64,000 nucleotides of DNA. It comes from Paenibacillus apiarius. GTDB taxonomy: Bacteria; Bacillota; Bacilli; Paenibacillales; Paenibacillaceae. Positions 3,001 through 42,993 of this stretch are shown here, piece by piece (the first letter of the stretch is position 1; every line of letters begins with the position of its first letter). Where the stretch lies: NCBI RefSeq assembly GCF_017052585.1, contig NZ_JAFFHZ010000001.1, positions 3,463,001-3,527,000 of the forward strand. The letters are read 5' to 3'. The notes under the pieces were generated by a model that saw only the letters and a list, made by a program, of their open reading frames with translations, searched no databases and was not told where the DNA came from. A program made the translations under genes and the position numbers.

Positions 3001-6000
3001 CCAGACCGGCCATACGGCCGGCCGTGCGGCCGGAGAGCGTTCCGCTGTCCTTCGCCCAACGGCGTTTATGGTTCCTGTATCGTCTGGAAGGACCCAACCC
3101 AACCTATAATATTCCGCTTGTAGCCCGTTTGTCCGGAGAATTGGACCTGAAGGCTCTGGAGGCGGCCCTTGGTGATGTGGTGAACCGGCACGAGACGCTG
3201 CGCACGGTGTTTCCCGATACGCTAGGGACCTCGCGTCAGCTTATTCTGGATGCCGGAGAGGCACGGCCTGAGCTGATCCTGACGGAAACGAGCGAGGCTG
3301 AGCTGCCTGAACTGCTTGCGGAAGCCGTGAGGTACAGCTTCCAGCTATCGGCTGAGTCTTCGCTGCGGGCCCAACTGTTCGTGCTTGCTCCGAACGAGTA
3401 TGTGCTGCTGCTGCTGTTGCACCATATTGCCGGGGATGGCTGGTCGCTGACTCCGTTAACCCGCGATCTGTCCGCTGCATATGCGGCACGCTGCCGGGGC
3501 GAACTTCCCGAATGGCAGCCGTTGCCCGTACAGTATGCGGACTATGCGATCTGGCAGGAGCGCCTTTTGGGAAGCGTTGGCGATCCCGGCAGTCTGATTG
3601 CCCGCCAGCTCGATTTCTGGACGCGGACGCTTAAGGACCTGCCGGAGCAGTTGGAGCTGCCAACCGATTATCCGCGGCCGGCAGCAGCAAGCTACCAAGG
3701 CGGCACCGTTCATTTCCATATTAACAGGCAGCTGCACGGCCAGCTATTAGAGCTTGCACGTGACAGCAAGGCGAGCCTGTTCATGGTGCTGCAAGCCGCA
3801 CTGGCCGTTCTGCTTACGCGGCTTGGCGCGGGCAACGATATTCCGATCGGCAGCCCGATCACCGGACGGAGCGACGATGCGCTTGACGGCCTTGTCGGTT
3901 TGTTCATCAACACATTGGTGCTGCGCACCGATACTTCAGGCGAACCGAGCTTCCGCGAGCTGCTGGCCAGAGTCCGCGAGGTCAGCTTGGCTGCGTACGA
4001 GCATCAGGATTTGCCGTTCGAGCGTCTGGTCGAGGTGCTTAACCCTGTCCGCTCCCGGGCCAGACATCCGCTCTTCCAGATTATGCTGGTGCTGCAAAAT
4101 ACGCCGGATGCAGCGCTGGAGCTGCCGGGTGTGACATCCAGCCTTCACATTCAAAGCGCGGGCACGGCGAAGTTCGACTTGACGGTGGAACTGAATGAGC
4201 GCCGCGATGTGAATGGGGAACCTGACGGGTTGGATGGAATTGTGGAATACAGCGCCGATTTGTTCAAGCGCAGTACGGCCGAAGCATTGGCAGCCCGTTA
4301 TTTGCGCGTGCTGGACACTGCTGCCGCCGAACCAAGTAAGCATATCGGAGAGCTTGATATTTTGACGCTGGAAGAGCGGCACAGCATCCTGCAGGAATGG
4401 AGCGCGCCTGTAACCGCAACGCGGCAAGGCACTCTTCCAGAGCTGTTCGAGGCGCAGGCCGCCCGTTCGCCAGAGGCTGTATCTGTCGTCTATGAAAGAG
4501 ACTCCTTGAGCTATGAGGAATTGAACATCCGGGCGAACCGGCTCGCGCATCTGCTCATCGCAGAGGGTGTAGGACCCGAGCAAATTGTAGCTTTGGCGCT
4601 GCCGCGGTCTGTGGAGATGGTTGTCGGCGTGCTGGCCGTTCTGAAGGCTGGGGCTGCCTACCTGCCACTCGATCCGGATTATCCTGTCGAGCGGCTCGCT
4701 TATATGCTGGAGGACGCCGATCCGGTCTGTATGATAACCAACACTCACGTATGCGGCAAGCTGCCTGATACGGGAAGCCTTCCGCGGATTGTGCTGGATG
4801 AGGCCGGCATCGGGGAGCGGCTGCGGCAGTATTCCCCTGCCAACCCAAGCGATCATGAACGCAGGGGGCGCTTGTCTCCGCTTAGTCCGGCTTATATCAT
4901 CTACACGTCAGGGTCTACGGGCAAGCCGAAAGGGGTGCTCATCCCGCACCAGAACGTGGTGCGCTTGTTTGCAGCTACAGAGCACTGGTTCCAATTTGAC
5001 TCTGATGATGTATGGACCTTGTTTCATTCGTATGCCTTTGATTTTTCGGTGTGGGAAATATGGGGCCCGCTCCTGCATGGCGGCCGTCTCGTAGTGGTGC
5101 CTCATACGATCAGCAGGTCGCCGGGCGAATTCCTGCAGTTGCTCTCACAAGAGGGCGTGACCGTCCTGAATCAGACGCCGTCCGCCTTCTATCAATTGAT
5201 GCAAGCCGACCGTGAACATCCAGAGCTAGGGCAGACGCTCTCCTTGCGGTACGTCATTTTCGGCGGAGAGGCGCTGGAGCTTGGCCGGCTGGAGGACTGG
5301 TATGAGCGCCATCCGGATCATGCTCCGCGGCTGATTAACATGTACGGCATTACCGAGACAACCGTGCATGTCAGCTACAATGAGCTTGACCGGAACAGCG
5401 CCGCCCTGGGTGCCAACAGCCTAATTGGCGGGCCTATACCGGATCTTCGGGTATATGTGCTGGATGATGCGCTGCAGCCTGCTCCGCCCGGAGTGACGGG
5501 GGAGATGTATGTTGCCGGCGCAGGTCTGGCCCGCGGTTATTGGGGTCGCCCGGGGCTCACGGCTGAGCGGTTCGTCGCCGATCCGTTCGGTCCGCCAGGC
5601 ACCCGAATGTACCGCACCGGAGATTTGGCGAAGCGGCTCGCCGACGGTTCTCTAGATTATCTGGGCCGGGCCGACCATCAGGTGAAGATTCGGGGCTTCC
5701 GTATCGAACCGGGCGAGATCGAAGCCGTAATTGCCCGGCATCCCGGGGTGGCCCAGGCGGCAGTCGTGGTGCGCGAGGATCAGCCGGGAGACAAACGTCT
5801 GGCAGCTTATGTGGTGTTCGCCTTGGGCGCGAACCTTGAACCGGCTGATTTGCGCCGCCATGCTGCTTCCATTCTGCCTGATTACATGGTCCCGGCTGCG
5901 ATTATAGGCATGGATGCTTTGCCGCTCACTCCGAACGGCAAGCTGGATCGCAAGGCGCTGCCGGCGCCTGACATCTCCTTGGCGCTTGACGGCCGTAACC

Positions 6001-24376: not shown

Positions 24377-25480
24377 TCAAGAGTCGCAGCTGAAGGACGA
24401 TTTTGAGAATTCCTGCTCCTTCGCTTCGAGAAATACCCGCTGCGCCGGCATGGCGAGACGGACTCCTTCTTGCTCCAAAATGTCCATAATCGCGAAGTTA
24501 ATTTCCTCCCGCACACGCAAATGCTCCGCCCACACCGTCGACTGTGTAAAAAAGTAACACATAATGCCGAGCTGGTCCGCATGAAACTCGGTGAACCGAA
24601 TCATAATCGTTCCCGGAGCGACCTCGGGATGGGCAGTAATATGCTCCCGAATCCGTTCTACCGCACGAAGCAGGCTTGCCCGCCCCGTGTCCACCGCGAC
24701 GCCTAGCGTAAACGTGATGCGGCGCTTGCCCATCCGGCTGAAATTCGTAATCGCCTGGTCGGCCAGCGTAGCGTTCGGGACGATGACGAGCGTATCCGCG
24801 AACGTGCGGATTCTTGAGCTCCGGAACGAGATGTCCTCGACCACGCCTTCTACGGTAGACGTCTGGATCCAGTCGCCCCGCGCGAACGGCTTTTCCGTTA
24901 TGATGATGACCCCGGCAATGAAATTGCTGAACGTATCCTTGGCCGCCATAGCGACCGCCAGACTGCCAAGTCCGAGTCCCGCCACCAGGCCGTTGATGCT
25001 GTATCCCCATTCGGAGGAAATCATCGTAATGGCTATGGCCACGATAACGATGCGCAGAATGCGCGACAGAAACGGGATCAGCATGCTCGACTGCTCGACT
25101 CCCAAGCGCGTGGTAAATCCGGTAAACAGGTTGGAGGAGCGTCCGGAAAAATTGTATAAGCCCCACCCGACGATGGCAATGAAGGAACTCCGGCTCAACT
25201 GTTTGAATAGCGGCCAATAGGGCCATTGATCGGGAAAGTAGAAATGAAAGGCCGCGTTCACGCCTCCCAAAATAAGCAGCATGCGGACCGGCTGTTCGAA
25301 GGAATGCATGAAGCTGGCGATATTGGTGCTTCGCGTTTTGTCCGCCATGCGAACGATGAAGCGGAACAGATAGCCGGCGACCCAGTTGCGAAAGAACAGA
25401 AACAGAAGCAGGATACCGATGGCGATGAGCAGCCTCGTCCCGTCGATCTGTTCGAAGAACGAGTGAAATGGTTGATCCAT
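24377..25480 (-). CDS. Mechanosensitive ion channel, MscS family
   Basis: A 367-residue inner-membrane channel that opens under membrane tension to relieve osmotic downshock. There are four to five transmembrane segments. The Gly/Ala-rich pore helix is clear (NGLVAGLGLGSLAVAMAAKD, near residue 170), followed by the beta-domain stretch FARGDWIQTSTVEGVVEDIS, with FRSSRIRTFADTLVIVPN next. The C-terminal alpha/beta cage domain is complete. AAGGAGGG lies 10 nt before the ATG at 25480. It is monocistronic and convergent with the CHAT-like gene. Confidence 0.93.
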   Translation of the reverse strand: MDQPFHSFFEQIDGTRLLIAIGILLLFLFFRNWVAGYLFRFIVRMADKTRSTNIASFMHSFEQPVRMLLILGGVNAAFHFYFPDQWPYWPLFKQLSRSSFIAIVGWGLYNFSGRSSNLFTGFTTRLGVEQSSMLIPFLSRILRIVIVAIAITMISSEWGYSINGLVAGLGLGSLAVAMAAKDTFSNFIAGVIIITEKPFARGDWIQTSTVEGVVEDISFRSSRIRTFADTLVIVPNATLADQAITNFSRMGKRRITFTLGVAVDTGRASLLRAVERIREHITAHPEVAPGTIMIRFTEFHADQLGIMCYFFTQSTVWAEHLRVREEINFAIMDILEQEGVRLAMPAQRVFLEAKEQEFSKSSFSCDS

Positions 25481-35284: not shown

Positions 35285-36139
35285 TTACACGCTCTGCTCC
35301 TCCTTGCGCTGACTTTGCTGACTTTCAAGCTCATCGCCGATCCGGTATCGCGCGAGCGCCTTATCCGCACTTTCACGCATGCGCCGCTGCAGCTTTTCGC
35401 CTTCGATGATGCGCACCCGTTTGCCGAGAAAACGGATTTTGGACAAAATATATTCGCATTCGTCTCCCATAAATGCAAGCCGGATCAGGTATGTATCCGT
35501 GTCATCCAAATATTCCACTTCCTTCTCGAAGCAGGAGAAAGCGTACATAATGCGGGACAGCTCCCGATTGTACATCCGCATCACTTCGATGACTGCGTGC
35601 TCTTTGCGGGAATCAAGGATAGCGGCGATCTTAATGAGCAATTCCTCCGCTCTGGGAGCGGAAATGGGCTCTGCCCGCACGTCCGTAATATTCCGCAGTC
35701 TAGTGGACATGAACATATGACGGCGTGGATGGTGCCATAACAGGTACCACTCCCGTTTGACCATGGAATATTCCAGCTTATAAGGGAATCCGGATTGCGC
35801 CGGCTGCATGCCTCCGTGCTTGAGCCGATAGGAAATGCGGATGCCCTGGCGCTCTGCGATAATTCGGCGCAAGGGGCGCAGGAGCGGGTGGTACACTTGG
35901 CGCTCGACACTGGCTGCCTTTTCGGCGACATGCTCGGCAATATCAATGTCCGCCTCGGATTGCAGCACGGACGCCAGCTTAGCCATCGTCTCCGGCGTGA
36001 ACGCTGCGGCTTCGGCAGGATGGTCCAGCATCGCTTTTAACCATGACCGTTCGTGTGAAGTGACGGCGAACGTGCCGGATTCCTCCAGCCGCGACATAAT
36101 CTGATAGTTAAAAATCTTCTCGAACAGGTTCATCGCCAT
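35285..36139 (-). CDS. WYL-domain regulator 2
   Basis: A 284-residue protein dominated by a WYL domain (residues about 85-250) with RQGIRISYRLKHGG and YSMVKREWYLLWHHPRRH, then a WCX-like C-terminus (ALARYRIGDE). No strong helix-turn-helix is visible at the N-terminus. WYL domains sense nucleic acids or nucleotides and control conflict and repair systems. It overlaps WYL regulator 1 by 32 nt, so the two are co-translated and probably act together. They diverge from the Y-RNA/Ro60/RtcB operon. Confidence 0.8.
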   Translation of the reverse strand: MAMNLFEKIFNYQIMSRLEESGTFAVTSHERSWLKAMLDHPAEAAAFTPETMAKLASVLQSEADIDIAEHVAEKAASVERQVYHPLLRPLRRIIAERQGIRISYRLKHGGMQPAQSGFPYKLEYSMVKREWYLLWHHPRRHMFMSTRLRNITDVRAEPISAPRAEELLIKIAAILDSRKEHAVIEVMRMYNRELSRIMYAFSCFEKEVEYLDDTDTYLIRLAFMGDECEYILSKIRFLGKRVRIIEGEKLQRRMRESADKALARYRIGDELESQQSQRKEEQSV

Positions 36140-37439
36140 AGTATGATTGAATCTCCTTCCACTCGTCGATCAGCTCCTGCCGGAGCTTCTGCGGCTTCAA
36201 CACTTCGCAGCTGGAGCCGAAGCTGCGCAGCCATGGTTTAATTTCCGTAATCCCGTTTACCGTGATTTCATACAAGAACGAATCGTTATTCTCCTCGATG
36301 ACGCGCCCCCACTGGCCCTGCAGCAGCACGCGCTCCTTGATGAAATTCGCGCGCGCGCCTTCGGGGTTATAGAACCGCGCCACCACCGTCATTGGATGGC
36401 CGGTGTCCACAAGCCAGCTGTGACGCGTCCGCTCCTCCAGCTCCTGCAGCTTGCGGTTGAACAGTTCCTCGGGCACGGCTTCGCCTGCTTGAACTTGAGT
36501 CAGCCCCTCCATCCGGTATTTCATGAGCCCTAGCCGGGAGGTGTGGCCGAGCAAATACCATCTGCCGTATTGATGGTCGTAGACCACCTTCAATGGCAGC
36601 ACGCTTTCCTGCTTTCCTTGCGTGTCGCGCTGGAAGAGCGGATTCGTGTTCTGTGAGGCGTACTTCTTCCGCGCCTTGGGCGAGAAATAGAGGAATGACA
36701 GCTTGCGGCGCTCCCGTATCGCCTGCAGCAGCGGATACAGATGCGCCTCATCCAAAATGCGAGAGTAATAATGATATTTGTATAGAAAGAGTTCCGCCGT
36801 GCCGGCGTCCATTTCCTTCCGCTTTAACGCCTGCTTCAAATTATCTCTGAGGATATAGCCTTGAACGGAAGGCACCTGCGTATTCGCCATGACATCGACG
36901 AAGTCGTAGAGGTCGATCAATTCGTCGTCCGTCAGCTCGTTGACGATGTCATGATGCATCGAGTACCGGTAAGGCCGGCCGCCTTTCATTTTACGGATGA
37001 CGCCGACGTCCTCCAAATATTTCAGATCGGAACGAATTGTCTTCTCGTCCGGAAGCGGGTACTCTTCAGGCAACTGGCAGCTGCAAGCGTCAATCAGCTC
37101 CATCGCGGTCATCGCCTGCTCCTGCAAAGCCGCCAAGATGACCGATAAGCGATAGCTTTCTGATTCCTTCAACGATTTGGCCCGGAACAAGAACAGGAGC
37201 ATCGGATCTGCCGATTCATAGTAATTGAAACGGAGCGTGTCTGCGAACTCCCGGCCCTCATCTTGGGGGAGCTGCCGGGAGATTGTATGTACGATTTCCT
37301 TCAGGCGCCGAATCGTCTTGTCGAACGTATGCACCGAAATGCCCAAGCGCTGCGCAAATTGCTGCCGGCTGTAAGCGCCGCTGGTCAGCACAAGCATGCG
37401 GAGAAATTGAATTTCTTTATCGAAGCTTTCTTTCGCCAT
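36108..37439 (-). CDS. WYL-domain regulator 1 with N-terminal HTH
   Basis: A 443-residue transcription regulator. The N-terminal winged helix is ASTS-like in layout: VLTSGAYSRQQFAQRLGISV and HTFDKTIRRLKEIVHTI (residues 14-50), with a second wHTH around 110-150. The WYL domain has RRKLSFLYFSPKAR and VYDHQYGRWYLLGHTSRLGL, and the C-terminal WCX extension ends IKPWLRSFGSSCEVLKPQKL. Start choice: GGAGG is 8 nt before ATG 37439; the frame upstream to 37499 lacks a ribosome site. Its start faces the RNA array at 37.6 kb, so it is the prime candidate to sense RNA damage and control the operon (inference). Confidence 0.85.
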   Translation of the reverse strand: MAKESFDKEIQFLRMLVLTSGAYSRQQFAQRLGISVHTFDKTIRRLKEIVHTISRQLPQDEGREFADTLRFNYYESADPMLLFLFRAKSLKESESYRLSVILAALQEQAMTAMELIDACSCQLPEEYPLPDEKTIRSDLKYLEDVGVIRKMKGGRPYRYSMHHDIVNELTDDELIDLYDFVDVMANTQVPSVQGYILRDNLKQALKRKEMDAGTAELFLYKYHYYSRILDEAHLYPLLQAIRERRKLSFLYFSPKARKKYASQNTNPLFQRDTQGKQESVLPLKVVYDHQYGRWYLLGHTSRLGLMKYRMEGLTQVQAGEAVPEELFNRKLQELEERTRHSWLVDTGHPMTVVARFYNPEGARANFIKERVLLQGQWGRVIEENNDSFLYEITVNGITEIKPWLRSFGSSCEVLKPQKLRQELIDEWKEIQSYYGDEPVREDF

Positions 37440-37610
37440 GGGAGGAGCCTCCTTTCCGGTCCCAGAGGGGTCTATATTCCATTTTAGCAGGGGAGACATA
37501 TGGGGAAAATGGGAAACTTTTTTTCATGTCGTAATACTTCCGCCATGTTCGCGCCTGCAAAAATGAGCGAAGATAAGGATGTGTTGCCGGGCACCCCGAG
37601 TGAAGGCGGC

Positions 37611-37760
37611 ACGGCGCTCCATGAGGCGCATGGACGGGTTACTTCGCCTTTTAAGCGACAGGTCGTTGGTTCGAGTCCAACTCCCGCCACGTATGGCGGG
37701 ATAGCTCAGGTGGTAGAGCAGTTATGTTCCTGTCCGCCCAACTTCCTCATGGACCGTCTT
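37611..37760 (+). ncRNA. Y RNA-like (YrlA-type) RNA 1 with circularly permuted tRNA mimic
   Basis: An outer 9-bp helix, TCCATGAGG (37618-37626) with CCTCATGGA (37745-37753), closes a structured RNA. Inside it, GACAGG (37657-37662) pairs with CCTGTC (37729-37734) and encloses a tRNA-like module in permuted order. First comes the T-arm GTTGG-TTCGAGT-CCAAC (37665-37681). Next is the acceptor helix TCCCGCC/GGCGGGA (37682-37688 with 37695-37701), capped by the loop ACGTAT. Last is the D-arm GCTC-AGGTGGTA-GAGC (37704-37719). Bacterial YrlA RNAs have exactly this design: a Ro60-binding helix plus a tRNA mimic with a closed acceptor end. The RNA lies 280 nt upstream of the Ro60 gene. Ends are approximate. 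Confidence 0.82.
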
Positions 37761-37775
37761 CAAAAAAACAATCTC

Positions 37776-37890
37776 GCAAAGCGAGGCGCTTGAAAGGGAT
37801 CCTTCGACTTTTATGGGAAAAGTAATGACGGTGTTCACCGGTTCGTCCGGAGCATCATGTGGCCTTTTCACTCTTTTCCTCGCTTCTGTT
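37776..37890 (+). ncRNA. Y RNA-like RNA 2
   Basis: AAGCGAGG (37779-37786) pairs perfectly with CCTCGCTT (37878-37885), and AAAGG (37793-37797) with CCTTT (37863-37867). After the outer helix comes the block GAGGCGC-N6-GGG-N4-CTTCG that also occurs at the same place in RNA 1 and RNA 3. The apical part contains CCGG-TTCGT-CCGG, a short T-arm-like hairpin, but no D-arm or acceptor. It is therefore a paralogue of RNA 1 without the full tRNA mimic. Ends are approximate. Confidence 0.65.
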
Positions 37891-37914
37891 ATGAAACTTG
37901 CATGTAAATGAATG

Positions 37915-38010
37915 AATCCGGCGAGGCGCCGGGGAGGGTTCCTTCGCATCCAGCGCTTTGAGGCAGGTTCGAGCCTGCACGACCTTCCCCTCCTTTCCTC
38001 GCCGCTTATT
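37915..38010 (+). ncRNA. Y RNA-like RNA 3
   Basis: CGGCGAGG (37919-37926) pairs with CCTCGCCG (37997-38004), and a second 10-bp helix forms between GGGGAGGGTT (37931-37940) and GACCTTCCCC (37981-37990). The 5' block GAGGCGC ... GGGTT ... CTTCG aligns with RNAs 1 and 2. The apex has a T-arm-like hairpin GCAGG-TTCGAG-CCTGC (37963-37978). It ends about 27 nt before the Ro60 start codon, so it could also act as a 5' untranslated structure. Ends are approximate. Confidence 0.68.
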
Positions 38011-38036: not shown

Positions 38037-39566
38037 ATGAGTTTTGCGCGGAAATTGTTTTCGGCCGCGAAGCCGACGACGAGAAATTGCGACGGTTATC
38101 CAGCATATGCGCGTTCTGCGGAGGAGCAATATTTGCAGACGCTTTTGACGAATACAATGGGCAATACATTTTACGCGGATCGGAACGAGCTTCTGGAAGA
38201 CGCCAGTCTCATGCATATGGAGATGGCAGAGCGCAATCCGCAGTTCATGGCGAAGGCGCTTGTCTATGCGCGCAATGAAGGCTATATGCGCCTGCAGCCG
38301 CTGTATGGGCTGGCCGTGCTGTCATGTTACCGCTCGGATCTGTTTGCGAAGGTATTTCTGAAGGTAGTCCTCATCCCTTCCGATCTGTCCGACTTCCTTA
38401 CTATCCTGCAGGGCCTGGGACGCGGTGAGGGCGGCCGCGCCGTGAAGCGGCAGGTGAACCGATTCCTGGCGGGCGTCTCGGAATATTGGGCGCTCAAGTA
38501 CAATGGCCGCGGCCGCGGATACAGCCTGGGCGATGCGATTGCTACGGCTCATCCGAAGCCGGCCGACCTGAAGCAGCAGGCGCTGTTCCGGTATTTGCGC
38601 GGTCGCGAGGCGAATCTGGCCTTGCTGCCGCAGGTGGAGGCGCTGGAGAACCTGAAACGCGCGAACACGGAGAAGAAGCAGCTCCGCTGGATTACGCAGG
38701 GGAAGCTTCCCTATTCGACCGTGACGGGAGCCATCAAGCCTACGAAGGCGATATGGGAGGCTTTGCTGTGCCAGATGCCTGCGTTTGCGCTGCTGCGCCA
38801 CCTGAATGCGCTGCTCCGTGCGGGCGTGTTCGAGAACGAGGCGAACTTGCAGTATGCCGTGCAGCGGCTGACCGATCGCGAAGCGCTGGCCAAGGCTAAA
38901 ATATTGCCGTTCCGCTTCGTTCTAGCGTATGAGCAGGTCGACCATCCCGTACTGCGCGACGCGCTGCGGGAGGCGGTGGAGCTGACATTCGGGAATTTGC
39001 CGGAGCTGGGCGAGCAAACCGCGATTTTTCTGGACATCTCAGGCTCGATGAGCGGTGAATATTTGCGCATCGGGTCGGTGTTAGCGCTGGCGCTATACAA
39101 GAAAACGCAGGGCAACTCGCTATTCTGGCTGTTCGACACGAAAGTGCTGGACGCCAAGCCGTCACGGCATGACAGCATCCTGAGCCAGGCGGAGCGCATT
39201 CGAGTCCGCGGGGGAACCGACACCGGAGCGCCGGTGCGGGAGCTTCTCCGGCAGGGGAAGAAGGTCGACCAGCTCATCATCATTACGGATGAGCAGCAGA
39301 ACAGCGGCAGCCCGTTCTATGAGGCCTTGTCTGCCTACCGTGCGCAGGTGAATCCAGAGGTAAAGGCGTTCATCGTGGACATTGCGCCTTACCGGACTGC
39401 GATGGTGCCGCCGCAGGACACGAAAACGCACTACATCTATGGATGGAGCGATAACGTGCTCACGTACATTGCCCAGACCATGCAAGGTTATAAGACGCTT
39501 GTGGAGCGCGTGGAATCAATAACTGTGGAAGAGGCCCGGGATGAGTCGGCGGATGGCCGCGAATAA
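38037..39566 (+). CDS. rsr: Ro60/TROVE-domain RNA-binding protein (Rsr-like)
   Basis: A 509-residue bacterial Ro60 orthologue. The N-terminal two thirds form the TROVE HEAT-repeat ring, with LLTNTMGNTFYADRNELLED and FMAKALVYARNEGYMRLQPL typical of the family. The C-terminal third is a von Willebrand A domain with an intact MIDAS motif DISGSMSGE and RGGTDTGAPV. Ro60 binds Y RNAs and misfolded RNAs and can steer RNase. It lies directly behind three Y-RNA-like genes and before rlaP and rtcB. GGGAGG is 11 nt before the ATG. Confidence 0.93.
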   Translation: MSFARKLFSAAKPTTRNCDGYPAYARSAEEQYLQTLLTNTMGNTFYADRNELLEDASLMHMEMAERNPQFMAKALVYARNEGYMRLQPLYGLAVLSCYRSDLFAKVFLKVVLIPSDLSDFLTILQGLGRGEGGRAVKRQVNRFLAGVSEYWALKYNGRGRGYSLGDAIATAHPKPADLKQQALFRYLRGREANLALLPQVEALENLKRANTEKKQLRWITQGKLPYSTVTGAIKPTKAIWEALLCQMPAFALLRHLNALLRAGVFENEANLQYAVQRLTDREALAKAKILPFRFVLAYEQVDHPVLRDALREAVELTFGNLPELGEQTAIFLDISGSMSGEYLRIGSVLALALYKKTQGNSLFWLFDTKVLDAKPSRHDSILSQAERIRVRGGTDTGAPVRELLRQGKKVDQLIIITDEQQNSGSPFYEALSAYRAQVNPEVKAFIVDIAPYRTAMVPPQDTKTHYIYGWSDNVLTYIAQTMQGYKTLVERVESITVEEARDESADGRE

Positions 39567-39590: not shown

Positions 39591-40391
39591 ATGTCCGATA
39601 TAAAGCAAACGATATGGCAGGAGCTGCGGCAAATTGAACGGCAGGAGGACGTATGCATCGTATACGCCTGCGAATCCGGCAGCCGGGCATGGGGGTTCCC
39701 GTCGCAGGATAGCGATTACGATGTCCGCTTCCTGTATGTCCGGCCGGTGGACTGGTACTTGTCCATCTTCGAGCGCAGAGACGTCATCGAACGGCCCATC
39801 AGCAACCAGCTTGATATCAACGGCTGGGACTTGCTCAAAGCGCTGCGGCTGTTCCGCAAGTCCAATCCCCCCTTGCTGGAATGGCTGCAGTCGCCGATAC
39901 AATATGAAGAAACGCATTCGGTCGCGGAACAGATCCGCAGCCTGTCTCCGCTCGCCTTTTCGCCCCGATCGTGCATGTACCATTATCTCAACATGGCGAA
40001 GGGAAACTACCGGGAGTATTTGCAAGGGGAACAGGTGAAGATTAAGAAATATTTCTACGTGCTCCGTCCGATATTGGCGTGCGGCTGGATTGAAAAGCAC
40101 AACGCAATGCCCCCGATGGAATTCGGCGTTTTGGTGCGCGAGCTGCTGCCGGATGGCAGCGATCTGCGGGAAGCAGTGGATCAATTGCTGGCACGGAAAA
40201 TGTCCGGGGAGGAACTTGACTGCGAATCGAGAATACAATCCATTAATGAGTTTATTGAAGAGCGCATCGATTATTATGGGCGTGCGGCCGTTAACCTGAA
40301 ATCTATGGAGGGGCGGCAACGGCAGGATCGGGCTTTGGATGAGCTGTTTCGGGCGGCGCTCCGGGAAGTGTGGGCGCAGCAGAAGGGATAG
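39591..40391 (+). CDS. RlaP-type nucleotidyltransferase (RNA repair)
   Basis: A 266-residue polymerase-beta-fold nucleotidyltransferase. The active-site motif is ESGSRAWGFPSQDSDYDVRF (residues 28-47): Gly-Ser followed by the Asp-x-Asp metal ligands. The rest is helical with CMYHYLNMAKGNYREYLQGE and KKYFYVLRPILACGWIE, matching the RlaP/YcgL family often found with RtcB in RNA-repair operons. AAGGAGG lies 7 nt before the ATG. It probably adds or restores nucleotides at broken RNA ends before ligation by RtcB. The acceptor is unknown. Confidence 0.85.
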   Translation: MSDIKQTIWQELRQIERQEDVCIVYACESGSRAWGFPSQDSDYDVRFLYVRPVDWYLSIFERRDVIERPISNQLDINGWDLLKALRLFRKSNPPLLEWLQSPIQYEETHSVAEQIRSLSPLAFSPRSCMYHYLNMAKGNYREYLQGEQVKIKKYFYVLRPILACGWIEKHNAMPPMEFGVLVRELLPDGSDLREAVDQLLARKMSGEELDCESRIQSINEFIEERIDYYGRAAVNLKSMEGRQRQDRALDELFRAALREVWAQQKG

Positions 40392-40422: not shown

Positions 40423-41649
40423 ATGGCATATGAAACAATTGCAGGCGTGCGGGTATGGGGCAAGCCGGAGGAGAGCGCAGTCGCCCAAGCGAAGACGTGC
40501 GCGCGTAACGGCCGCGTCGTGCAGGCGCTCTTAATGGCAGACCATCATAAGGGCTACAGCCAACCGATTGGGGGCGTCGTCGTCTATGACGGCCAAATCT
40601 CCCCTTCCGGCGTCGGCTACGATATCGGATGCGGCAACAAGGCGGTGCGGACGAACTTGTCCGCTGCCGACATCAAGCCGCGCATCGGCGCCATCATGGA
40701 CGAGATAGCGAAGAAGATATCGTTCGGCGTTGGCCGGCACAACGATGAGAAGGTGGACCACGAGCTGTTCGACGACCCGGATTGGAACGTCTATATGTCC
40801 ATCGGGCGTCAAGAGCATGACAAGCTGAAGGCGCTGGCCCGCGGCCAGCTGGGAACGGTCGGCAGCGGCAACCACTATGTCGATCTGTTCGAGGAATACG
40901 GAACGGGCGCGCTATGGATCGGGAATCACTTCGGGAGCCGCGGCTTCGGGCACAAGACGGCCAGCGGATTCTTGAATTTGGCTGCGGGGCGGGACTTTCT
41001 GGGCAAGGCGCCCGGCGAAAGCATGGATCAGCCGCCGGTGCTGCTTGAGCTGGAGAGCGAGCTTGGCGATATGTACTATCGGGCAATGAAGCTGGCAGGA
41101 CGTTACGCATACGCGGGACGGGACTATGTCATCCGTCAGGTGCTGTCTCTCCTCGGTGCGGAGGCTGATTTTGAAGTGCACAACCATCACAACTACGCGT
41201 GGAAAGAGCAGCATGGCGGCCGCGGCACGATTGTCGTGCGCAAAGGAGCCACTCCGTCGGCGCCAGGCCAGCTCGGCTTCATCGGCGGCAGCATGGGCGA
41301 CATCTCGGTCATTATCCGCGGGAAGGATACGGACGAGAACCGGGATTCCTATTATAGCACCGTGCATGGAGCGGGCCGCATCATGAGCCGCACCCAAGCA
41401 GCCGGCAAAATGAACTGGAAGACGCGGACCCGAACGGGCGGACAGATTGCGCCAGAGCAAATGCGCGCGGCCGTTCGGAGCTTCGGCGTCGAGCTGCGCG
41501 GAGCGGGCACTGACGAGAGCCCGTTCGTGTACCGCAAGCTGCAGGATGTGCTGGACGCCCATCAGAACACGATCGAAGTGCTGCACGTGCTGAAGCCGAT
41601 TGGCGTCTGCATGGCCGGGGCTGACGAGTTCGATCCGTACAAGGATTAA
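40423..41649 (+). CDS. rtcB: RNA-splicing/repair ligase RtcB
   Basis: A 408-residue RtcB, which joins 2',3'-cyclic phosphate or 3'-phosphate ends to 5'-OH ends with GTP and Mn2+. Seen are the metal-binding Cys in GVGYDIGCGNKAVRTNL, the His-rich HNHHNYAWKEQHGGRG and GNHFGSRGFGHK, the guanylylated His in VHGAGRIMSRTQA, and the C-terminal KPIGVCMAG. Start choice: AGGAGAG is 8 nt before ATG 40423; the open frame upstream overlaps rlaP. No archease gene is next to it. It closes the Ro60-RlaP-RtcB operon, whose terminator is split by an insertion element 75 nt downstream. Confidence 0.95.
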   Translation: MAYETIAGVRVWGKPEESAVAQAKTCARNGRVVQALLMADHHKGYSQPIGGVVVYDGQISPSGVGYDIGCGNKAVRTNLSAADIKPRIGAIMDEIAKKISFGVGRHNDEKVDHELFDDPDWNVYMSIGRQEHDKLKALARGQLGTVGSGNHYVDLFEEYGTGALWIGNHFGSRGFGHKTASGFLNLAAGRDFLGKAPGESMDQPPVLLELESELGDMYYRAMKLAGRYAYAGRDYVIRQVLSLLGAEADFEVHNHHNYAWKEQHGGRGTIVVRKGATPSAPGQLGFIGGSMGDISVIIRGKDTDENRDSYYSTVHGAGRIMSRTQAAGKMNWKTRTRTGGQIAPEQMRAAVRSFGVELRGAGTDESPFVYRKLQDVLDAHQNTIEVLHVLKPIGVCMAGADEFDPYKD

Positions 41650-41731: not shown

Positions 41732-41815
41732 TGGTATTATCCCCTTTAAGTAGACACTCAAAAAAAACCTTGTGCTATCATGAGGAACAAGAGTGAACTT
41801 GGAGGGGATTTTTCT

Positions 41816-42157
41816 ATGGCTAGAAAGGGACAAGTGTTTCAACAGTATACCGAAGAATTCAAACTAGCAGCAGTCAAAGCGTATTTAGAAGGGAAGTCCA
41901 GCTATAAAACGGTAGCGGAAAAGTTAGAAATCAGAAACTGTACCCAATTAAAAGTATGGGTAAGGAAGTGGCAGCATGGAGAAGCGTTCGATATCCGTAA
42001 AGGGGTATCGAATCCTCTTAAGGGACGTCCGCGTACAGCCTTTGACACTGTGGAACAAGAACGGGATTATTTGAAAGCACAGGTCGATTACTTAAAAAAG
42101 CGGTATCCAAATCTGGTAAAGGAGGCACGCTCCGTTCGCAGGATAACTACCAAGTGA
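41816..42157 (+). CDS. IS3-family transposase OrfA
   Basis: A 113-residue DNA-binding subunit. Helix-turn-helix: YTEEFKLAAVKAYLEGKSSY followed by KTVAEKLEI, then a leucine-zipper-like RDYLKAQVDYLKKRY. GGAGGGG is 9 nt before ATG 41816. The slippery heptamer AAAAAAG (42094-42100) would move ribosomes to the -1 frame and produce the OrfAB transposase. The bridging frame reads KKAVSKSGKGGTLRSQDNYQ, confirming the fusion. Confidence 0.9.
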   Translation: MARKGQVFQQYTEEFKLAAVKAYLEGKSSYKTVAEKLEIRNCTQLKVWVRKWQHGEAFDIRKGVSNPLKGRPRTAFDTVEQERDYLKAQVDYLKKRYPNLVKEARSVRRITTK

Positions 42158-42993
42158 TTGAAGAGCTGCGTGATCTCTATGATGTTACGCGTTTGTTAGC
42201 CATTGCGGGGGTACCTAGGGCTAGTTATTACAAGTGGCGAGCGACACGGTCATTAAGGGCCGAAAGACAAACAAGGGATCACGAGATCAAGGAGCACATG
42301 ATGGCTATTCACTTTGCGCACCCCTATTTTGGATATCCTCGTATGATGACAGCTTTATGGGAGGCTGGTTATCGTATTAACCATAAAAAAGTATGGCGGC
42401 TTATGAAGGAATTATCTATCCAGTCCGTCATTCGCAAGAAACGAAAGCGTTCTAGTTCTACGCCTTCCGTCGTGTATCCTAACCGATTGAAGCGTCAATT
42501 CCATGCTGTAGGTCCGCAGCAGAAGCTAGTCACCGATATTACGTATATCTCCGACGGCACACGCTTTTATTACCTGTCGGCGATACAAGATCTGTTCAAC
42601 AATGAAATTGTGGCTTGGCAATTATCCGAGCGAAACGACGTAAAGCTGGTGCTGGATACGATTGAGCAGTGGACACGAAAAAGAGACGTTTCGGAAGCCG
42701 TGCTCCATTCGGATCAGGGCTTCCAGTACACGTCTCAGGCCTACAACTCACGATTGGAAGCATTCAGCGTCAAAGGCAGCCACTCTCGCAAAGCAACCTG
42801 CCTGGATAACGCCTGCATCGAATCCTTCTTTTCGCATCTCAAAACAGAGAAGTTGTATCTTCACCAGTGTACGTCAGAAGCTGAGATTCTTCAAGCTGTA
42901 GAAGAGTATATCTACTTTTATAATTATCAGCGCTTTCAAGCCAAACTCAAACAGCGCGCGCCAATTGAGTATCGGCACGCGCTGGCTGCATAG
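42154..42993 (+). CDS. IS3-family transposase OrfB (DDE integrase domain)
   Basis: A 279-residue catalytic part. HTH_21-type helix VTRLLAIAGVPRASYYKWRA is at the N-terminus, and the rve integrase core carries the DDE triad: D in LVTDITYIS, D in VLHSDQGFQYTS and E in NACIESFFSHLK. The visible GTG at 42154 overlaps the orfA stop by 4 nt, but the active product is probably the frameshifted OrfAB. Confidence 0.92.
   Translation: MIEELRDLYDVTRLLAIAGVPRASYYKWRATRSLRAERQTRDHEIKEHMMAIHFAHPYFGYPRMMTALWEAGYRINHKKVWRLMKELSIQSVIRKKRKRSSSTPSVVYPNRLKRQFHAVGPQQKLVTDITYISDGTRFYYLSAIQDLFNNEIVAWQLSERNDVKLVLDTIEQWTRKRDVSEAVLHSDQGFQYTSQAYNSRLEAFSVKGSHSRKATCLDNACIESFFSHLKTEKLYLHQCTSEAEILQAVEEYIYFYNYQRFQAKLKQRAPIEYRHALAA

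Follow-up and report, generated by a model that had tools for sequence, protein, structure and literature searches.

Three Y-RNA-like elements of different classes, one with a circularly permuted tRNA-like module, precede the Ro60, RlaP and RtcB genes of Paenibacillus apiarius

Between a divergent gene for a WYL-domain protein and a gene for a Ro60 homologue, the genome of Paenibacillus apiarius carries three consecutive structured segments. What are these segments, and what might three of them do beside genes for RNA repair? We addressed this question in a window of 64,000 nucleotides (assembly GCF_017052585.1, contig NZ_JAFFHZ010000001.1, positions 3,463,001 to 3,527,000), whose own numbering is used throughout. 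Bacterial Y RNAs, their occurrence in tandem pairs and their mimicry of tRNA were already known. A preliminary description of this DNA had proposed that three Y-RNA-like genes precede Ro60, RlaP and RtcB, and sequence comparison makes this the best-supported reading of positions 37618 to 38004. It agrees with the Pfam assignments of the genes, the co-occurrence of the elements with Ro60, the covariation of their helices, and a permuted tRNA module of the YrlA type in the first element.

RESULTS

Three structured elements stand in front of the Ro60 gene

The features of the locus are listed below; R1 is a class A covariance model of 47 sequences.

35285 to 36139, minus strand: second WYL-like protein (20.4 bits, slightly below the cut-off of 21.8)
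36108 to 37499, minus strand: divergent WYL-domain protein, putative regulator (Pfam WCX and WYL; HTH matches weak)
37529 to 37551, plus strand: conserved motif TCGTAATACTTYCGCCATGTTCG, candidate operator or promoter, in the interval that separates element A from the divergent WYL gene
37618 to 37753, plus strand: element A, putative class A Y RNA gene containing a circularly permuted tRNA-like module (covariation; R1 143.9 bits, a score expected because R1 was built with this copy among its rows)
37779 to 37885, plus strand: element B, putative Y RNA gene of class B with hairpins replacing the full tRNA module (R1 39.9 bits; B is not in R1)
37919 to 38004, plus strand: element C, putative Y RNA gene of class C, core plus T-arm hairpin (R1 47.3 bits; C is not in R1)
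38037 to 39566, plus strand: Ro60 (Rsr) homologue, 509 aa (Pfam TROVE and vWA_Ro60; PDB 2nvo RSR, E 1.4e-18)
39591 to 40391, plus strand: RlaP nucleotidyltransferase of RNA repair (PF10127, E 9.5e-98)
40423 to 41649, plus strand: RtcB RNA ligase (PF01139, E 3.5e-67)

The elements lie 33 to 418 bp ahead of the Ro60 start and on the same strand. Behind rtcB, at 41780 to 42993, two overlapping reading frames resemble an IS3-type transposase pair.

As had been described, each of the three segments is closed by its own helix (9 bp in A, 8 bp in B and 8 bp in C) and opens with the same block, GAGGCGC-N6-GGG-N-T-N-CTTCG. Their common layout is a lower stem ending in GAGG, the bases CGC, an upper stem ending in GGG, and N-U-N-CUUCG; the 3' sides consist of CCU, a pyrimidine-rich loop and CCUC. 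In the 6.58-Mb genome an exact copy of the core was found at three places, all within 37618 to 38004. Allowing up to 2 mismatches gave five matches, these three and two others with 2 mismatches each, and the same pattern read backwards gave 7. When a looser detector, requiring the core and two helices, was run on mononucleotide-shuffled loci (16.0 Mb) and on the opposite strand (0.80 Mb), it gave 47 and 3 matches, respectively, and against this background three elements in 400 bp are beyond chance.

Folding energies were compared with those of shuffled sequences and gave z values of -3.3 for A, -0.8 for B and -2.7 for C, so that for B taken singly the energy does not reach significance. When A was folded on its own, the minimum-energy structure contained the lower stem, the T arm and the acceptor stem. 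It lacks the upper stem, the anticodon arm and the D arm, which therefore rest on comparison and not on energy. Three separate closed units were not seen in the minimum-energy fold of the whole 571-nt region (z = -1.6). Across 159 distinct elements of all classes, about 98% of the positions pair, a figure inflated by the pairing demanded when candidates were detected. Thus, as in bacterial Y RNAs, the paired 5' and 3' ends form a conserved stem that includes an internal loop as well as conserved bases, some of this pairing having been demanded at detection. One upper-stem position is a G-U in 154 of the 159 elements, with covarying outer pairs, and the fixed wobble suggests recognition by a protein.

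The motif TCGTAATACTTYCGCCATGTTCG has a single match in the genome when up to 3 mismatches are allowed. Of 79 distinct regions preceding class A, 60 contain the 8-mer CCATGTTC of this motif, and in many of these loci AGCGAAGATA follows TCGTAATACTTYCGCCATGTTCG. A promoter scan found no sigma-70-like site. Going by position and conservation, our guess is that the WYL protein may be a regulator and 37529 to 37551 its site.

Element A contains a permuted tRNA-like module

Closer inspection of element A added a feature that the preliminary description had missed, namely that it has the nature of a permuted tRNA. Its parts, all on the plus strand, are these:

37618 to 37626, plus strand: 5' strand of the lower stem, followed by internal loop CGCAT and the 5' strand of the upper stem (37632 to 37638)
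37644 to 37658, plus strand: anticodon-arm mimic UCGC-CUUUUAA-GCGA, loop at 37648 to 37654 (from comparison; not in the minimum-energy fold)
37665 to 37681, plus strand: T arm GUUGG-UUCGAGU-CCAAC
37682 to 37701, plus strand: acceptor-stem mimic UCCCGCC / GGCGGGA, its halves joined by a 6-nt loop
37702 to 37719, plus strand: U8-A9 and D arm GCUC-AGGUGGUA-GAGC (not in the minimum-energy fold)
37729 to 37735 and 37745 to 37753, plus strand: 3' strands of the upper and lower stems

From the upper stem, class A thus runs through an anticodon-like arm, a variable region, the T arm and the 3' half of the acceptor to a short loop, and from there through the 5' half of the acceptor, U8-A9 and the D arm back to the upper stem. 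All 47 aligned class A rows have U8, A9, A14, U54, U55, C56, G57 and A58, and the 15-48 pair is G-C in 46 rows and A-U in 1. The invariant bases and this pair indicate that the tertiary core of an L-shaped tRNA is apparently kept. Because a loop joins the two acceptor halves, class A has no aminoacyl end and no free 3' CCA. The permuted module with T, acceptor and D arms is restricted to class A; elements B and C of the window lack it.

One candidate tRNA gene was rejected. The only Rfam call in the window at its gathering threshold was a tRNA at 37633 to 37689, and it was marginal (29.2 against 29 bits). It was judged false, since its alignment builds the 5' half of the acceptor from bases that belong to the upper Y stem, and since ARAGORN found no tRNA in the window. 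In relatives, tRNA finders report presumed false tRNAs within Y elements (ARAGORN tRNA-Asn in L122, 4598 to 4671, and tRNA-Trp in L161, 3210 to 3302), so Y RNA genes may be mis-annotated as tRNAs.

Helices of classes A and C covary among homologues

The preliminary description had taken the differing closing helices of the three segments as strong covariation within one locus. The helices do pair as described, but this support is thin, as B and C both have GCGAGG; real support comes from homologues, in which the helices of A and C are kept by compensatory changes. In the class A alignment 98.9% of 1597 cells are paired and 18 of 34 pairs show double changes. There were 191 double-change cells, compared with a mean of 52 in shuffled alignments, and none of 500 shuffles was as high. 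When the partner was slid by 1 to 3 columns, pairing fell to between 39 and 56%. Double changes were seen in all 7 pairs of the acceptor stem, 4 of 8 in the lower stem, 3 of 7 in the upper stem, 2 of 5 in the T arm, 1 of the 3 counted in the anticodon arm and 1 of 4 in the D arm. For class C, 99.4% of 517 cells are paired and 7 of 20 pairs have double changes, a count equalled or exceeded in 4 of 500 shuffles; its count of further pair types was not above that of shuffles (193 of 500). All of these values are to be read with the facts that the candidate search demanded at least 5 lower-stem pairs, that the structure was drawn on one sequence and that the sequences are related. Rows with mis-set ends or degenerate sequence were left out: L033 from alignment A1 (47 of 48 distinct sequences used), L057 and L060 from A2 (26 of 28) and L013 from A3 (13 of 14). 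Covariation was not established for class B, whose tops are highly variable, and no such claim is made for the top of B because the MAFFT alignment A3 was too poor for pair counting.

The anticodon-like loop of class A has two changeable positions

The anticodon-like loop of class A has 7 nt, with U33 in all 47 rows, C32 in 45, U36 in 44, A37 in 45 and A38 in 46. Its "anticodon" is UUU in 17 rows, GUU in 13, UCU in 10 and CUU in 2; GCU, UCC, CGU, GUA and UCA occur once each. Changes at each position were counted by parsimony on the Ro60 tree for 46 loci. Positions 32 to 38 changed 1, 0, 8, 10, 2, 1 and 0 times, respectively; the mean over 127 well-filled class A columns was 2.9, and T-loop position 59 changed 11 times. 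The loop-closing pair changed 4 times on each side and is found only as A-U (40 rows) or C-G (7 rows). U36 and A37-A38 favour the modification t6A, and positions 34 and 35 are the usual cut site of anticodon nucleases. A mimic of the tRNAs for ANN codons is expected to show free positions 34 and 35 together with a nearly fixed U36-A37-A38.

The elements accompany Ro60 in the family

To what extent do the elements go with Ro60? A Ro60 protein search of 295 Paenibacillaceae genomes matched 69, of which 68 loci were fetched; the remaining match, G238, is 33% identical over the vWA part. Loci L001 to L065 have a near-full-length Ro60 (in two frames in L064, with stops reported inside in L065), and L066 to L068 have fragments. 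By the detector (core and both helices), at least one element is upstream of all 65 near-full-length Ro60 genes and of none of the 3 fragments. Within 700 bp of the Ro60 start there are three elements in 16 loci, two in 23, one in 25 and none in 1. The last is L035, with an intact element at -1046 and, near Ro60, a degenerate class A copy (R1 84.4 bits). Since the detector script is rough, these counts are lower bounds: it misses the class A element of L031 (R1 99.7 bits) and the degenerate copy of L035, and it mis-bounds the first element of L025.

In 26 named Paenibacillus and Brevibacillus loci, 12 have three elements, 12 have two and 2 have one within 900 bp; the nearest named relative is P. 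profundus, whose Ro60 is 94% identical. Within the locus DNA examined, the WYL pair was found in 23 of the 26 loci, RlaP in 18 and RtcB in 15. The repair genes therefore are not always adjacent, RlaP not being found in 8 and RtcB in 11 of these stretches.

A covariance-model search of the same 295 genomes was carried out with R1, with 11 candidates per genome scored under strict filters. Full-length matches of 80 to 149 bits were obtained in 62 of the 69 genomes with a Ro60 match and in none of the 226 without one. As 46 of the 62 genomes had supplied rows to R1, the informative part of this census is the absence elsewhere together with the 16 further genomes, some of whose copies are identical to R1 rows. 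Seven genomes with a Ro60 match lack a strong class A element: G021, G098 and G122, which have Ro60 fragments; G238, with its weak vWA match; and G155, G178 and G244, whose only elements near Ro60 are of class B or C. Counting against the link, G239 (locus L100) has no Ro60 match and, next to tRNA genes and rtcB, retains one Y-like element (48.5 bits). Among the matches listed, the weak full-length ones of the Ro60-less genomes G133 and G234 were rejected as tandem tRNA junctions.

Some elements stand farther from Ro60. The class A elements of L128 are only at -868 and -664, and L033 and L035 each have an intact class A element about 1 kb upstream plus a degenerate one near Ro60. In L099 a second class A element (5567 to 5699, 137.9 bits) was noted on the far side of the WYL pair, 7.4 kb ahead of Ro60.

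We also noted tRNA clusters in the repair islands of several relatives: L096 (4439 to 5779, 14 genes), L097 (4737 to 5074, 4), L098 (6785 to 7495, 8), L101 (6329 to 6882, 6) and L100 (8411 to 9127, 8, without Ro60). They encode tRNAs for His, Gln, Glu, Pro, Asn, Trp, Ile, Asp and Lys. An RNase H-like gene is found in such islands (PF04308 in L096; similar proteins in L097, L098 and L100). Upstream of the clusters lies a further Y-like element with the same core (L096, 6477 to 6594; L097, 4107 to 4223; L098, 8180 to 8300; L100, 7613 to 7736), which has a T-arm-like hairpin in L096, L098 and L100 and is 1.9 to 4.8 kb before Ro60 in L096, L097 and L098. In Anabaena, a tRNA operon and rtcB are reported to be under a single repressor, TrcR (PMC10272220).

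The elements fall into three recurring classes

The three elements had been described as paralogues with different apical domains; their tops are not arbitrary, and they represent three distinct classes that recur among the loci. Where more than one class was called, the order is A, B, C, the exception being the mis-bounded first element of L025. Element B of the window has a T-loop-like GGTTCGT and was hence labelled "C" by the detector script. Element C is 86 nt long, compared with 109 nt for the copy in the nearest relative, L002. Nor is the array of three unique: 16 of 65 loci carry three elements, and multi-element arrays occur in phages too. A limited literature search found no Paenibacillaceae Y RNA arrays, though key primary papers may differ.

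Related elements occur in other phylum genomes and in phages

Pfam TROVE matched 8 of 398 phylum genomes and misses at least G007, which was found by protein search. In the five matched loci from outside the family, the R1 scores were 94.9 (L133), 79.9 (L139), 70.0 (L138), 42.8 (L135) and 25.1 bits (L132). The loop of L133 is UUGUUAA, with one stem pair mismatched; L139 and L138 have noncanonical loops of 8 and 9 nt; and L135 is without a D arm and has a 5-bp hairpin with loop CUUAGGA.

R1 also matches loci of actinobacterial phages. A script examined 11 such matches for the arm (L093, L142 twice, L143 twice and L144 to L149). In L093, the second match of L142, the second match of L143 and L149, 3 or 4 stem pairs carry a loop of 7 nt that has U33 and A37; L148 has a 5-bp hairpin ending in UAA, with G at 33; and the remaining 6 of the 11 (the first matches of L142 and L143, and L144 to L147) have no anticodon-like arm. 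Judged by these phylum and phage loci, the arm is neither universal nor confined to the family. In Streptomyces phage BRock, four Y-like elements (L140, 1853 to 2336; two by model, two by eye) stand immediately ahead of the Ro-like gene, and in Mycobacterium phage Nappy three do (L093, about 2520 to 2880; one by model, two by eye). None of these is in the feature tables shown. Such arrays resemble the window locus in having several Y-like elements before a Ro-like gene, a UUAC motif and some anticodon-like loops. They differ in their core stems, and a canonical anticodon loop is absent from the first YrlA of BRock and from five of its relatives.

In Listeria phage P100 (L168, about 25170 to 25430, minus strand), three tandem hairpins were seen by eye directly before gp165 (DUF2828, DUF7788). 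They have different closing stems, a common ACAGCAA-U/A-UACUA block and fold z values of -1.4, -2.5 and -3.6. P100 gave no full-length R1 match above 10 bits. The hairpins may correspond to a highly transcribed noncoding region reported for the P100-like phage CKA15 (PMC12282133).

DISCUSSION

Relation to known Y RNAs

Salmonella YrlA adopts a permuted tRNA fold (PDB 6CU1; PMC11472068), is modified by TruB and DusA, and binds PNPase (PMC8394870). Class A shares with the Salmonella type, RF02553, a long terminal stem, a circularly permuted module of T, acceptor and D parts, and an adjacent rsr. It differs from it in core sequence and in an extra 16-nt hairpin exactly at the place of the anticodon arm, where the Rfam consensus joins the Y stem directly to the tRNA module; the insert was seen in the aligned relative L074. 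The arm is thus new relative to the Rfam YrlA consensus, and a review lists just the D, T and acceptor arms (PMC8394870). A limited literature search found no anticodon arm in a Y RNA, though primary YrlA papers may describe one. Element A matches RF02553 in part, at 36.3 bits (39.8 and 39.9 bits in two relatives), and since this is under the gathering cut-off of 69, class A was not filed as a member. No match at the cut-off was found in 18 relative loci or 199 phylum genomes. The Rfam model was rejected as a census tool, as 134 of the 199 genomes match at E of 0.001 or less with none over the cut-off. Judged from the junctions seen with R1, many of these weak matches probably span tandem tRNA junctions.

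The locus is reminiscent of the Salmonella operon, where tandem Y RNAs, Ro60 and RtcB are found together (PMC9879122, PMC7790460). There the order is rsr-yrlB-yrlA-rtcB-rtcA (PMC9879122), with two Y RNAs after rsr and control by sigma-54 with RtcR, and the operon is induced by tRNA fragments (PMC7790460). The window locus, unlike that of Salmonella, has its Y-like elements before Ro60, up to three classes of them, RlaP between Ro60 and RtcB, and a WYL pair upstream. A 2020 study of the RNA repair operon states that the roles of Ro60 and Y RNA lay outside its work (PMC7790460).

Possible functions of the three elements

The explanation that best fits the whole, and one we hold to be probable, is that A, B and C are adaptor Y RNAs of an RNA-repair operon that bind Ro60, with one handle and three ends. 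The shared stem-bulge-stem core would be the Ro60-binding handle. The ends differ: A has a permuted tRNA mimic that comprises D, T, acceptor and anticodon arms, B has hairpins and C has a lone T arm. We infer that the RNAs would be transcribed and made together with Ro60, RlaP and RtcB, would bind the same Ro60 ring singly and would gate its cavity, the end of each selecting the partner tethered to Ro60. For A and C this partner may be a tRNA recogniser, either a nuclease such as PNPase or an enzyme of tRNA repair or modification; B, by analogy, might steer Ro60 toward other partners. Exchange of the Y RNAs could then switch one Ro60 between tasks after RNA damage. In Deinococcus, Y RNA is reported to tether Rsr to PNPase and to gate entry (PMC4726728). 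The likeness to RYPER of Deinococcus radiodurans (Rsr, Y RNA and PNPase) would lie in the proposed working alone, a Ro60-binding stem plus a nuclease-tethering end.

The anticodon-like arm of A, lying in a locus with RNA repair enzymes, raises another possibility, namely that A, and partly C, acts as a decoy or sensor of anticodon-loop damage. The nucleases that attack host tRNAs would also cut or occupy the arm, Ro60 would present the damaged mimic, and RlaP and RtcB would repair it along with real tRNAs. The 8 and 10 changes at positions 34 and 35, next to only 0, 1 and 0 at 33, 37 and 38, are in keeping with this, as are the tRNA gene clusters in the same island of some relatives and a proposal that YrlA is a competitive inhibitor (PMC7790460). 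However, rapid change at 34 and 35 may equally mean a lack of constraint, T-loop position 59 having changed 11 times; B has no such arm and needs another role; and Salmonella YrlA is reported not to be cut by an SOS-induced anticodon nuclease (PMC7790460), though the arm is missing from the Rfam YrlA consensus. On balance we consider the decoy unlikely. Rather doubtful, too, is a joint reading in which class A would be a complete tRNA mimic whose loop has been selected to resemble ANN-decoding tRNAs, carrying t6A37 and offered to anticodon nucleases as a bait that can be mended. Ro60, RlaP and RtcB would then do the mending, B and C would direct Ro60 to other tasks, and positions 34 and 35 would change quickly in an arms race.

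Two further readings would deny that the elements are Y RNAs of their own. Standing 33 to 418 bp before the Ro60 start on its strand, they could be cis-acting, riboswitch-like leader structures of the operon and not separate RNAs. This is very improbable, given the greater distances in relatives (L128, L033, L035 and L099) and the closed units, each with its own helix and a different top and repeated two or three times, which would be superfluous in a leader. They might also be remnants of tandem tRNA genes, as a junction alone yields the order T arm, acceptor, D arm. R1 does match tandem tRNA gene junctions, at about 41 bits; many weak Rfam YrlA matches fall in a similar range, and tRNA clusters lie near the loci of some relatives. 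Against this, the acceptor halves of A pair with each other over a short loop, with double changes in 7 of 7 pairs, the whole module is enclosed in the Y core, full-length matches of 80 to 149 bits occur only in genomes with a Ro60 match (295 searched), and ARAGORN found no tRNA in the window. An origin of this kind is extremely improbable.

With the elements read as Ro60-binding adaptor Y RNAs, the locus would provide three natural Y RNAs that share a handle and differ in their ends, beside a ligase and a nucleotidyltransferase, and their roles could be separated by single deletions. The anticodon arm of class A, which recurs throughout the family and partly also in the phylum's other genomes and in phages of actinobacteria, would be a concrete clue to the partner: a reader of whole tRNAs.
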